A stretch of DNA of 64,000 nucleotides. Source: Aromatoleum evansii. Its GTDB lineage: Bacteria; Pseudomonadota; Gammaproteobacteria; Burkholderiales; Rhodocyclaceae. Below the pieces are notes generated by a model. That model ran no database searches. It saw only the letters and a list, made by a program, of their open reading frames with translations, and was not told the origin of the DNA. The translations under genes were made by a program, and so were the position numbers. The DNA is taken from the NCBI RefSeq assembly GCF_012910805.1, contig NZ_WTVK01000022.1, positions 1-64,000 on the forward strand. Reading direction: 5' to 3'. This document shows positions 56 to 7,354 of this stretch, piece after piece (positions within the stretch are counted from its first letter, which is position 1; each line of letters starts with the position of its first letter).

Positions 56-85
56 TCGCATTCTGAATTCAGAAGTCCATAAAAT
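56..85 (+). promoter_or_regulatory. Promoter with palindromic operator (copy A) upstream of the acyl-CoA synthetase
   Basis: A perfect 14-bp palindrome, TTCTGAATTCAGAA (61-74), sits between a weak -35-like TCGCAT (56-61) and a -10-like TAAAAT (80-85). A second GAATTC-centred site, TTCAGAATTCAGAA, follows at 94-107, with its core 33 bp away, about three helical turns. The same arrangement recurs near 2938 and 7247. The palindrome is directly visible; that it is an operator is inferred from its place in the spacer and its recurrence. Confidence 0.55.
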
Positions 86-136
86 CTTCGGTGTTCAGAA
101 TTCAGAACACGATGAAACCCCAAAGGAGACACCGCC

Positions 137-1711
137 ATGAGCCACCTACTGACCATTTCAGACGCCGTTTCGACCCACGCCAGGCTGACGCCGGACAAGC
201 TCGGCACACGCGATTCGAAGCGTTCGCTGACCTACGCGCAGTGGGACGAACGCGCGAGCCGGCTCGCGGCGGGGATGCTCGGGCTGGGCCTGGGGCGGGG
301 CGACCGCGTGGCGGTGCTGGCCTACAACTGCGTCGAGTGGATGGAGATCTACGTCGGCCTGGCGCGCGCCGGGCTGGTCGCGGTGCCGCTCAACTTCCGC
401 CTGACCGCGCCCGAGATCGCCTACATCCTCGGCAATTGCGAGGCCGGGGCGCTGATCGCCGGCTCCGAGTTCGTCGAGACGGTCGATTCGATCGGCGCAG
501 AACTGGGCGCGCTGCGGGGTCGCTGCGTCGTCATGGGTGGCGAGGGGCCCGCGGGGGAGGGCTGGATCGCCTATGAGGACCTCGTCGCGCGGGCGAGCGC
601 CACGGTGGAGTTCCCGCGCGTGAATCCGGAAGAGATGTGCGCGCTGCTCTACACCTCGGGCACGACGGGCAAGCCCAAGGGGGCGATCCGCGCCCACGCC
701 GGCAGCACGCTGATCGCTCTGGCGACAGCGCTGGAGATGGGCTTCACGCGCGAGGATACCGGGCTGCTGGTGATGCCGATGTGCCACGCGAACTCGCTGT
801 ACTTCGGCACGACCTTCATCCACATCGGCGCGACCTGCATCGTCGACGACCGCCGCAGCTTCGATCCGGAAGGCCTCGTCGCGACGCTCGCGCAGGAAAA
901 GGTCACCTTCACGTCGCTGGTGCCCACGCACTACATCATGGTCCTCGCGCTGTCCGAAGAGGTGAAGAAGCGCTACGACGTGAGCAGCGTCGGCAAGCTG
1001 ATGATCTCGTCCGCGCCCGCGCGCAAGGACACCAAGCTCGCGATCCTCGAATACTTCTCCAACGGCAGGCTGTATGAGCTCTACGGTTCGACCGAGGCCG
1101 GCTGGGTCACGCTGCTGCGGCCGGAGGAGCAGATCGTCAAGCTCGGCTCGGTCGGTCGCGAATGGGCGGGCAGCGGCGCGATCCGCATGCTAGACGAGAA
1201 CGGGCAGGAAGTGCCGGACGGCGAGGTGGGCGAGCTCTTCTCGCGCACGTCCTACGTGTTCGACGGCTACTGGAAGAACCCCGAGAAGACCGCCGAGGCC
1301 TTCCGCGGCGAATGGTGCTCGGTGGGCGACATGGCGCGCCGCGACGAGGACGGCTACATCTGGCTGGTCGATCGCAAGAGCAACATGATCATCAGCGGCG
1401 GCGAGAACATCTACCCGTCGGAAGTCGAAGGCGTGCTCGGTGGCCATCCCAAGATCAAGGACGTCGCCGTGATCGGCATCCCGCACGACAAGTGGGGCGA
1501 GACCGTGCAGGCGGTGATCGTGCTGCACGACGGCCAGAGCGCCGACGCCGAGGAGATGCAGGCGTGGTGCCGGGAGCGCCTGGCGGGTTTCAAATGTCCG
1601 CGATCGGTGGTATTCATCGCGGACTCCGAGATGCCGCGCACCGCGACGGGCAAGATCCTGCACCGCGTGCTGCGCCAGCGTCTCGTTCCCCCCGAGGCCC
1701 TTTCGGCCTGA
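137..1711 (+). CDS. AMP-dependent acyl-CoA synthetase (class I adenylate-forming ligase)
   Basis: This 524-residue protein activates a carboxylic acid to its CoA thioester through an acyl-adenylate in the cytoplasm. The P-loop signature YTSGTTGKPKG lies near residue 172, YGSTEAGW is the A5 motif, GGENIYPSEVE is the A8-A10 region, and PRTATGKILHRVLRQ carries the catalytic C-terminal lysine. Length is normal for the family. The ATG follows AAAGGAG at good spacing. The substrate cannot be read from sequence; the neighbourhood (TRAP importer, PQQ alcohol dehydrogenase, aldehyde dehydrogenase, hydroxyacyl-CoA dehydrogenase) suggests an acid made by oxidising an alcohol. It is the first gene behind operator copy A. 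Confidence 0.9.
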   Translation: MSHLLTISDAVSTHARLTPDKLGTRDSKRSLTYAQWDERASRLAAGMLGLGLGRGDRVAVLAYNCVEWMEIYVGLARAGLVAVPLNFRLTAPEIAYILGNCEAGALIAGSEFVETVDSIGAELGALRGRCVVMGGEGPAGEGWIAYEDLVARASATVEFPRVNPEEMCALLYTSGTTGKPKGAIRAHAGSTLIALATALEMGFTREDTGLLVMPMCHANSLYFGTTFIHIGATCIVDDRRSFDPEGLVATLAQEKVTFTSLVPTHYIMVLALSEEVKKRYDVSSVGKLMISSAPARKDTKLAILEYFSNGRLYELYGSTEAGWVTLLRPEEQIVKLGSVGREWAGSGAIRMLDENGQEVPDGEVGELFSRTSYVFDGYWKNPEKTAEAFRGEWCSVGDMARRDEDGYIWLVDRKSNMIISGGENIYPSEVEGVLGGHPKIKDVAVIGIPHDKWGETVQAVIVLHDGQSADAEEMQAWCRERLAGFKCPRSVVFIADSEMPRTATGKILHRVLRQRLVPPEALSA

Positions 1712-1799
1712 CGGGGCGAGGGCGGCGGTCCGCATGGAGCGCCGCCCCACCGATTTCCCGGCCTCGCGGTGAGGAGGCGATCCCGACAAGAGAGCGTGC

Positions 1800-6284: not shown

Positions 6285-7169
6285 ATGAAGACCATCGACA
6301 CCTCCCTGCTGCGTGTCGGCTATGAGGAGTTCAACCCCGCCGCGACCCGCTCGGTCGTGCTGCTGCACGGCTGGCCGGACAGCATCCGCACCTGGTCCGA
6401 GGTCGCGTCAGGATTGGCCGAAGCGGGCTGGCGCGTCATCGTGCCCGCGCTGCGCGGCTTCGCGCCGACACGCTTCCTGCACGCGGACACGCCGCGCGCG
6501 GGCCAGCTCACGGCGCTCGGGCGCGACCTGCTCGAGTTCATCGATGCGCTGGGCCTGGAGCAGCCGGCCCTGGTCGGGCACGACTGGGGCGCACGCGCGG
6601 CGGGCATCGCCTGCGGGCTGCGGCCGGGCGTGGCGAGCCATCTCGCGATGCTGTCGGTCGGCTACGGGACCAATGATCCCTCTCAGCCCTTGAGCGTCGA
6701 GCAGGCCCGCAACTACTGGTACCACTGGTTCATGGCGACGCCGCGCGGCGACCGCATGGTCCGCGAGAAGCGGCGCGACTTCGCCCGCATCATGTGGGAC
6801 ACCTGGGCTCCTGCGGGCTGGTATGCGCAGGACGAATTCGACACGACGGCCGCCGCGTTCGACAACGAGGACTGGCCGGACGTCACGCTGCACTCCTACC
6901 GGCACCGCTGGGGACACGCCGAGGGCGATCCCCGCTACGACGCCGACGAGGCCGCGATGCGCCCCGCGCCCGTGCTGCAGGTCCCGACGCTGGTGCTGCA
7001 CGGCGAGGAGGACGGGGTCAATCATCCCGACATGTCGGCGGGCAAGGAGTCGTACTTCACCGGCCCCTACGTGCGCCGGCTGCTGCCCGGAGTCGGACAC
7101 TTTCCGCAGCGCGAGGCGCCGCAGCAGGTGCTGGACGCGCTCCTGCAATTCCTGAGGGAAGGCCGCTAA
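6285..7169 (+). CDS. Alpha/beta hydrolase of the epoxide hydrolase / haloalkane dehalogenase type
   Basis: A 294-residue alpha/beta-hydrolase-fold enzyme. HGWPDS (oxyanion region, near residue 28), the nucleophile elbow GHDWGA with aspartate as nucleophile (near residue 99), HGEEDG (acid loop) and GVGHFPQREAP (catalytic histidine) are visible. An aspartate nucleophile is typical of epoxide hydrolases and dehalogenases rather than esterases. The ATG abuts the dctM stop codon, so it belongs to the TRAP operon and probably acts on the imported compound or an early product of it. The exact reaction is not determined. Confidence 0.85.
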   Translation: MKTIDTSLLRVGYEEFNPAATRSVVLLHGWPDSIRTWSEVASGLAEAGWRVIVPALRGFAPTRFLHADTPRAGQLTALGRDLLEFIDALGLEQPALVGHDWGARAAGIACGLRPGVASHLAMLSVGYGTNDPSQPLSVEQARNYWYHWFMATPRGDRMVREKRRDFARIMWDTWAPAGWYAQDEFDTTAAAFDNEDWPDVTLHSYRHRWGHAEGDPRYDADEAAMRPAPVLQVPTLVLHGEEDGVNHPDMSAGKESYFTGPYVRRLLPGVGHFPQREAPQQVLDALLQFLREGR

Positions 7170-7217
7170 GGCCGCATCTACCTCGTCGAACGCCTATCCT
7201 TGCTCATAATGTGGGAA

Positions 7218-7354
7218 TTCTGAATTCAAAAAAACGCAAAAACATCTTGCACTCTGAATTCAGAATTTGTAGAGTGTGCAACACACGAATCACCCACAAG
7301 AATCCTCACGCAAGGGATCGCGCAGGGGGTCAAACGATGGAGACGAGTCGAATG
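7218..7354 (+). repeat. Duplicated promoter/leader segment, copy C (partner at 2909-3043)
   Basis: Second copy of the segment at 2909-3043, with the same palindromes, promoter boxes and first coding codons. Between the -10 box and the start codon the two copies have diverged moderately, so the duplication is not recent. Confidence 0.75.
7247..7275 (+). promoter_or_regulatory. Sigma-70-like promoter with palindromic operator (copy C) for the Rieske-PQQ operon
   Basis: TTGCAC (7247-7252), 17-bp spacer, TAGAGT (7270-7275). TCTGAATTCAGA fills the spacer and a further GAATTC site lies at 7222-7227, preceded by another at 7215-7220. A palindrome between the boxes usually means repression by a dimeric regulator, although activation cannot be excluded. 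Transcription would enter the Rieske gene at 7337. Confidence 0.62.

Follow-up and report, generated by a model that had tools for sequence, protein, structure and literature searches.

Paired palindromes at the promoters of a catabolic gene cluster of Aromatoleum evansii: probable operators of an FCD-type GntR regulator

The DNA stretch analysed here (the window) comprises 64,000 nucleotides of Aromatoleum evansii, positions 1 to 64,000 of the forward strand of contig NZ_WTVK01000022.1, and opens with a catabolic gene cluster encoding an acyl-CoA synthetase, a permease, a tripartite ATP-independent periplasmic (TRAP) importer with an alpha/beta hydrolase, and a Rieske protein followed by a pyrroloquinoline quinone (PQQ)-dependent alcohol dehydrogenase and an aldehyde dehydrogenase (Table 1). 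Six TTCTGAATTCAGAA-type palindromes are found in the window, arranged as three pairs (61/94, 2909/2943 and 7218/7252) in front of the synthetase gene (site A), the importer genes (site B) and the Rieske gene (site C). A sequence-only reading had attributed them to one shared regulator of a small local regulon. Our comparisons make it very likely that they serve as operators for an FCD-domain regulator of the GntR family, which in relatives is encoded in the same catabolic cluster.

Table 1. Predicted operators, promoters and genes in the window
Feature	Position	Strand	Remarks
Operator A1 (predicted), TTCTGAATTCAGAA	61-74		0 mismatches, perfect palindrome; upstream of acyl-CoA synthetase gene
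Operator A2 (predicted), TTCAGAATTCAGAA	94-107		1 mismatch; 33 bp from A1
Operator B2 (predicted), upstream partner, TTCTGAATTCAAAA	2909-2922		1 mismatch
Operator B1 (predicted), CTCTGAATTCAGAA	2943-2956		1 mismatch; inside promoter B
Operator C2 (predicted), upstream partner, TTCTGAATTCAAAA	7218-7231		1 mismatch; overlaps another GAATTC 7 bp upstream
Operator C1 (predicted), CTCTGAATTCAGAA	7252-7265		1 mismatch; inside promoter C
Alternative promoter for A, TTGCAA-N16-TAGAAT	24-51	+	9/12 match; would set A1 at about +1
Promoter B, TTGCAC-N17-TAGAGT	2938-2966	+	exact; holds B1 in spacer
Promoter C, TTGCAC-N17-TAGAGT	7247-7275	+	exact; holds C1 in spacer
Acyl-CoA synthetase (AMP-binding)	137-1711	+	Pfam PF00501, 1.1e-78; first gene after A
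AEC-type permease (Mem_trans)	1800-2768	+	Pfam PF03547; neighbour kept in G012, G014, G015, G016
32-codon frame, METTRM...	3026-3124	+	start like that of the Rieske gene, then stop
TRAP importer (DctP 3445-4449, DctQ 4465-5007, DctM 5004-6284)	3445-6284	+	Pfam PF03480, PF04290, PF06808
Alpha/beta hydrolase	6285-7169	+	Pfam PF00561; closes B unit
Rieske protein	7337-7963	+	Pfam; first gene after C
PQQ-dependent alcohol dehydrogenase	7977-9773	+	Pfam; NCBIfam TIGR03075, 572 bits, cut-off 480
Aldehyde dehydrogenase	9822-11318	+	Pfam; last listed gene of C unit (7337-11318)
Histidine kinase and LuxR-type response regulator (14814-15461)	13403-15461	+	Pfam HisKA_3, Response_reg, GerE

Allowing up to three mismatches, the window has seven matches to the TTCTGAATTCAGAA pattern (one of them an overlapping three-mismatch offset at 87-100) against 0.56 expected, and none of 100 shuffles attained seven. 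The genome of the window (G000) was searched as 5.94 Mb in 330 contigs, with the window beginning at base 1 of contig C144. With at most one mismatch, seven places match in the whole genome, namely the six of the window and one on a second contig (C12:4947), and all seven stand at transcription units of one pathway. The palindromes are thus real, and the genome-wide search did not show the random scatter at non-promoter positions that had been named as telling against a regulatory role. A search for bare GAATTC pairs gave seven places, four having nothing to do with the palindrome.

Within the genus, five of 17 genomes have the motif with at most one mismatch: G000 and four congeners, G012, G014, G015 and G016. 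These are also the five with an orthologue of the PQQ alcohol dehydrogenase at at least 92%. At the same threshold the backwards control pattern scored 0 in all 17 genomes. At up to two mismatches there are 4-18 matches per genome against 1-15 for the backwards control (14 genomes), so that two-mismatch sites alone mean little genome-wide; six genomes were re-searched with at most one mismatch, along with G206 and G009. Regarding conservation, 27 of the 28 columns of the site C pair are invariant as against 45 of 122 other columns (five genomes; Fisher p 2.6e-9), and for the site A pair the counts are 24/28 and 50/79 elsewhere (five congeneric genomes). A1 is invariant in all 14 of its columns; conservation of A2 is lower (10/14), and G012 reads GAACTC there.

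The place on contig C12 is also a pair, with GAATTC at 4920 and 4951, and behind it lies a unit, here called D, that encodes an acyl-CoA dehydrogenase, a short-chain dehydrogenase/reductase (SDR), an APH-type kinase, a DUF6285 protein and a histidine phosphatase. The domains PF01636, PF19802, PF00441 and PF00106 place the kinase, its small partner, the dehydrogenase and the SDR in one operon. Promoter D reads TTGACA-N16-TACACT with the palindrome in its spacer and has counterparts in the four congeners; in G245, of another genus, it reads TTGACA-N16-TACAAT, the spacer site is degenerate (four mismatches) and a better site lies downstream. The regulon includes this fourth unit (the TRAP/acyl-CoA dehydrogenase operon) outside the window. 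A small regulon under one regulator is supported, its sites not being scattered at random.

The four congeners hold one cluster with TRAP genes, the acyl-CoA dehydrogenase operon, and gntR with a thiamine pyrophosphate (TPP) enzyme divergent from palindrome A; past this palindrome it continues with the acyl-CoA synthetase (orthologues at 89-93%), the permease, palindrome C, and the Rieske, PQQ dehydrogenase and aldehyde dehydrogenase genes. This TPP enzyme was identified as a 2-hydroxyacyl-CoA lyase (for the G015 protein, NF058623 at 833.2 bits, cut-off 600; PDB 7pt1, 1.9e-182). In these relatives the lyase-gntR unit divergent from site A probably also belongs to the regulon. The catabolic pathway would have as its parts uptake by the TRAP importer and the permease, the PQQ alcohol dehydrogenase with the Rieske protein and the aldehyde dehydrogenase, the synthetase, the lyase, and the dehydrogenase/SDR/kinase operon.

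In G015 the regulator has an N-terminal GntR winged helix (PF00392, 2e-13, 50.2 bits, cut-off 27) and a C-terminal FCD domain (PF07729, 1.3e-25, 90.7 bits, cut-off 24.3), with predicted FCD metal ligands (D/N-x3-H, H, H) at D133, H137, H181 and H203, columns read by alignment against Atu1419. A gntR gene at at least 88% is present in G009, G012, G014, G015 and G016, and it adjoins site A in four of the five genomes with the motif. The association extends well beyond the genus. Among 399 genomes of the order, GntR homologues were found in 32 at E <= 1e-50, with 34 matches; the 30 whose loci were examined (43-57% identity) come from 13 genera and 10 other families, and 29 of these loci carry a site with at most two mismatches (35 sites against 0.5 expected in shuffles). 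The best site in a 280-nt segment at the gntR start has at most one mismatch in 20/30 loci and at most two in 28/30, an autoregulatory position in other families, whereas control segments of the same loci gave 0/1096 and 9/1096 (104 of 1200 were skipped because the best site lay in them). The two segments with a worse best site are L241 (three mismatches) and L236 (four, with a two-mismatch site just outside). When perfect 10-mer palindromes were counted upstream of gntR independently of the motif, CTGAATTCAG was the commonest (13/30), followed by CTGTATACAG (3), and the others printed occurred once each. With a matrix built from 28 distant gntR sites, all six palindromes of the window take ranks 1-6 in the 64 kb (scores 23.9-29.1, A1 highest), the next scores being 15.3 for the overlapping offset and then 12.4. 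The idea of one shared regulator is accordingly supported and can be made more precise: it is most likely the GntR/FCD protein encoded in the cluster of the relatives, off this contig.

Closer to home, a second genus of the family (G193, G222, G245, G265 and G158) has gntR, lyase and synthetase genes together with the palindrome, and a third genus (G020) has a two-mismatch site before gntR and a pair before a TRAP operon. Sites with at most one mismatch also occur, unexplained, outside the clusters at G015:C89:4498 (L246 4498-4511), G245:C63:11049 (L251 3050-3063) and G020:C109:1134 (L250 1134-1147), and could possibly mark extra members of the regulon. The neighbours of gntR vary in the more distant loci: many homologues (L215-L244) adjoin acyl-CoA synthetases only 27-31% identical to that of the window, and others adjoin a PQQ dehydrogenase at 68-69% (L230, L232) or a lyase at 54-55% (L226, L228). 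Because of this variation, regulators of this family may act in several related pathways.

The recognition helix of the regulators changes with the operator. Beside GAATTC-type sites it reads SRQPVQQAL, SRQPVQQSL or SRQPIQQAL, with the exception of L233, which has SRQPVRQAL and a GGATCC-centred site. Six regulators (L239-L244) have SRQPVLQAL (SRSPVLQAL in L243), and their sites are mostly CTGTATACAG-like. Three paralogues of 28-30% identity have SRTPVREAL; two are without a site and one has TTATGTATACAAAA. Homologues of 42-43% within the same family either have CTCTGTATACAGAG-type sites (L194, L196) or none (L195, L197). R46 aligns with the guanine-reading Arg45 of Atu1419, and the position of its Arg49 is Q or L here.

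The promoters differ in how clearly they are defined. The exact TTGCAC-N17-TAGAGT arrangement described for B and C was confirmed, with hexamers that are weak (three of six positions of TTGACA and four of six of TATAAT); in G193 the counterpart of promoter C reads TTGAAC-N17-TATAGT. At B and C the palindrome does lie between the -35 and -10 boxes, as had been proposed for all three sites, but the boxes first suggested for A (56-85) are poor. The alternative at 24-51 is the sole sigma70-like match of a scan of positions 1-7600 (one found against 0.7 expected in shuffles, hence weak), under a rule that fails to pick up promoters B and C, and a similar sequence is present in G012, G015 and G016. 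Site A may therefore cover the transcription start; given a TATAAT behind site A in G014 and G016, the promoter may instead have the site in its spacer. A view of the three promoters as independent is not supported. B and C have their sites, their leader and ATGGAGACGA(C/G)TCGAATG in common, and because the leader and this start region also match, they are related copies of one element.

The partner site at 33-34 bp holds within the window, where the pair spacing is 33 bp at A and 34 bp at B and C. Across genomes it is 34-35 bp at C; at D it is 31 or 38 bp in G000, according to the choice between two overlapping sites, and 37-39 bp in relatives (30 for an alternative site in G014). G020 has 30 bp, and in G193 and G222 the partner at promoter C lies downstream instead of upstream, at 39-40 bp. 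A strict spacing of three helical turns was therefore rejected, the range being 30-40 bp across genomes and promoters. The partner looks auxiliary, because its place varies, site A is without a clear partner in G193, G245 and G265, and most distant gntR loci show a single site instead of a pair.

Promoter B was found in the window's genome only, among the five compared, and neither it nor the TRAP/hydrolase genes behind it are at the corresponding place in G012, G014, G015 and G016. Its resemblance to the C promoters extends over the promoter, the leader and ATGGAGACGA-TCGAATG and ends within the 32-codon frame, which is probably a remnant of the duplication. The identity of B is 137/184 to C of G015 and 134/183 to C of its own genome; being about equally near both copies, it need not derive recently from the adjacent C. 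The DctM protein of the window shares 30% identity with the DctM encoded by the TRAP genes in the relatives' cluster. No DctM was found on contig C12, and unit D of this genome is without TRAP genes. It is plausible that the regulon lost its importer and that an unrelated TRAP importer has taken its place under a copied operator-promoter. A frame resembling a DctP signal peptide, soon stopped, follows promoter D ahead of the acyl-CoA dehydrogenase gene (L135, contig C12, about 4600-4840). A broader interpretation would combine a mobile promoter-operator module, with B having captured the unrelated importer after the importer genes of unit D had shrunk to a DctP-like remnant, and a family-wide operator code in which Q or L at position 50 corresponds to GAATTC or GTATAC; the FCD-type GntR proteins concerned would form an undescribed group that regulates 2-hydroxyacyl-CoA and related pathways, and we regard this interpretation as tentative, with somewhat less than an even chance of being right.

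Several observations weigh against assigning the palindromes to the FCD-type regulator, among them the unclear partners of site A and the single distant sites described above. Another concerns the assembly of the window's genome, in which gntR was not found (none at E <= 1e-20, all 36 candidates scored) and neither was the lyase gene (best match 31%). When the 2.66-kb gntR-lyase stretch of G015 was compared with the assembly (40 of 450 candidates scored), the one clear match was that of its last 79 bases with C144:13-91, and five further pieces, 30-132 bases long, matched in other places. The histidine phosphatase gene on contig C12 has a neighbour other than gntR, unlike the order in relatives. 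In G009 a gntR (88%) with the same helix goes with no site of at most one mismatch; as read from the sequence, the cluster there (L199 8976-10872) is decayed to gntR, a lyase-like piece and the permease, without the synthetase. At L188-L191 of the second genus there is no site directly before gntR, which follows the lyase gene. The sites of the matrix were picked by likeness to the motif, so that the ranking is not wholly blind, and the distant loci are not independent, 10 of the 30 coming from one genus and six from another. The test is strong, if short of full independence. The helix change coincides with clades and may hence represent a single event.

The missing genes would fit an arrangement in which an unlinked regulator reads the same sites in this strain and the local gntR has been lost, and the different gene beside the histidine phosphatase on C12 agrees with this, as does the presence of other GntR candidates in the genome (the 36 scored above). 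Contig C144 ends at palindrome A, where gntR lies in relatives, and the conservation of A1, C1 and C2 resembles that of sites under selection. As the contig ends exactly inside the stretch conserved beside site A, an assembly gap is likely the simpler account of the missing gntR and lyase genes, and we consider replacement by an unlinked regulator improbable; the strain would then carry gntR in the gap. It is less probable still that we are dealing with a dispersed repeat, or with matches due to chance, that has no regulatory role. GAATTC pairs are indeed frequent in some other organisms: contigs of Nostoc, Desmonostoc and Okeania among the matches listed (for example L012, L014, L050 and L083) have many at similar spacing, perhaps interspersed repeats unrelated to the GntR regulator. 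Against this, the palindrome is limited to seven places in this genome, all before genes of one pathway, is conserved above its surroundings at C, and is kept near gntR in other families.

Regulators encoded within the window were considered as well. The sequence-only reading had remarked that no TetR or LacI regulator is encoded here, and a Pfam scan of 29 window proteins (of 60 genes called) found none. The two-component system at 13403-15461, with its LuxR-type response regulator, belongs to the same cluster as the sites. Two-component systems commonly regulate PQQ-dependent alcohol dehydrogenases, and the 7-bp offset at which some sites overlap is reminiscent of NarL-type heptamers. The best evidence for this response regulator as the binder is the co-occurrence of its closest orthologues (82-93%) with the motif in the four congeners. 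Response regulators of 69-81% identity are, however, present in 10 congeners without the motif at one mismatch, although several may be orthologues of a second copy in the window (32328-32969); G020 has the motif and no such response regulator at E <= 1e-60, in a genome 84% complete in which a miss is possible. The palindrome near the gntR start in 13 other genera outweighs the co-occurrence, and the LuxR-type regulator (14814-15461) was rejected as binder by this distribution, an argument that rests on the other genera; we give it little chance. The second copy belongs to a further PQQ cluster at 32322-39274, a paralogous alcohol-oxidation cluster without palindromes, with a response regulator at 32328-32969 (78%), a histidine kinase at 33010-34257 (69%) and a second PQQ alcohol dehydrogenase at 36403-38244 that is 44% identical to the first.

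The FCD-type regulator preferred here resembles a described one. Atu1419 (PDB 6z74) is the second-best solved relative of the GntR protein (E 1.1e-11). In the passages that describe it, Atu1419 of Agrobacterium fabrum is an FCD, VanR-group GntR repressor that binds ATGTATACAT, with palindromes placed either on the -10 box or in the stretch between it and the -35 box; it is a tetramer with each dimer on one palindrome, and Arg45 reads a guanine (PMC7797058). The likeness to that account comprises the GntR and FCD domains, a local catabolic regulon, short core-promoter palindromes and more than one palindrome per regulatory region, and R46 together with D133, H137, H181 and H203 matches Arg45 and the N-x3-H...H...H ligands (PMC7797058). 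The differences are the operator (TTCTGAATTCAGAA instead of ATGTATACAT), Q50 in place of Arg49, the pathway, and the distance within a pair, which is 30-40 bp here; for Atu1419 it is given as 190 bp, or as 109 bp when a degenerate site is taken.

The gene content recalls two other systems. Like the 2-hydroxyisobutyric acid clusters of the lyase-HCL and mutase-HCL types, as far as these are set out in the passages concerned, the relatives' cluster has an acyl-CoA synthetase beside a TPP-dependent 2-hydroxyacyl-CoA lyase and a GntR gene. According to those passages, the GntR gene is usually upstream of hcl in mutase-type clusters, and Table 1 of that paper includes one next to the Actinomycetospora lyase gene (PMC7176365); the same passages note the GntR gene and no operator site (PMC7176365). 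Unlike in HCL clusters, these genes are accompanied here by those for a PQQ alcohol dehydrogenase and a Rieske protein and by an Lva-like operon, and the synthetase is likened to HCL by its gene context. Unit D, with its acyl-CoA dehydrogenase, SDR, APH-type kinase, DUF6285 protein and histidine phosphatase, resembles the levulinic acid (lva) operon of Pseudomonas; DUF6285 is presumably the domain of LvaB. Described lva clusters contain kinase, dehydrogenase, SDR and phosphatase genes, and LvaR is stated in the passages on regulation to be a sigma54-dependent regulator (PMC6692424). GntR-type operators stand here in contrast to the sigma54-dependent LvaR, and the likeness is one of gene content. 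No sigma54-dependent regulator was present among the nine genes scanned on C12, a contig of only 8.3 kb; the four outside the operon are a TonB receptor gene and three without a Pfam family. Searches of open-access literature aimed at the motif, or at GntR operators combined with a 2-hydroxyacyl-CoA lyase, returned nothing on point. A local catabolic regulon of an FCD-type GntR protein is thus of a known kind, and the operator is newly proposed.

As to mechanism, a GntR dimer would probably bind each TTCTGAATTCAGAA-type site. Because the sites occupy the promoter spacer in units B, C and D and, at A, either the spacer or the start region, the regulator would most likely be a repressor that excludes RNA polymerase from the core promoter. 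The second, often weaker site 30-40 bp away would probably take a second dimer or be held by a tetramer, and the FCD domain may bind an intermediate of the pathway, possibly a (2-hydroxy)acid or the corresponding CoA ester, which would cause release.

For catabolic clusters built around a 2-hydroxyacyl-CoA lyase and a PQQ alcohol dehydrogenase, this work proposes a concrete, testable operator together with its regulator, and the operator can be used to seek members of the regulon genome by genome. The change of helix and operator offers a simple test of specificity within FCD regulators. For A. evansii, three promoters with an unnamed regulator would become part of one pathway with a named candidate.

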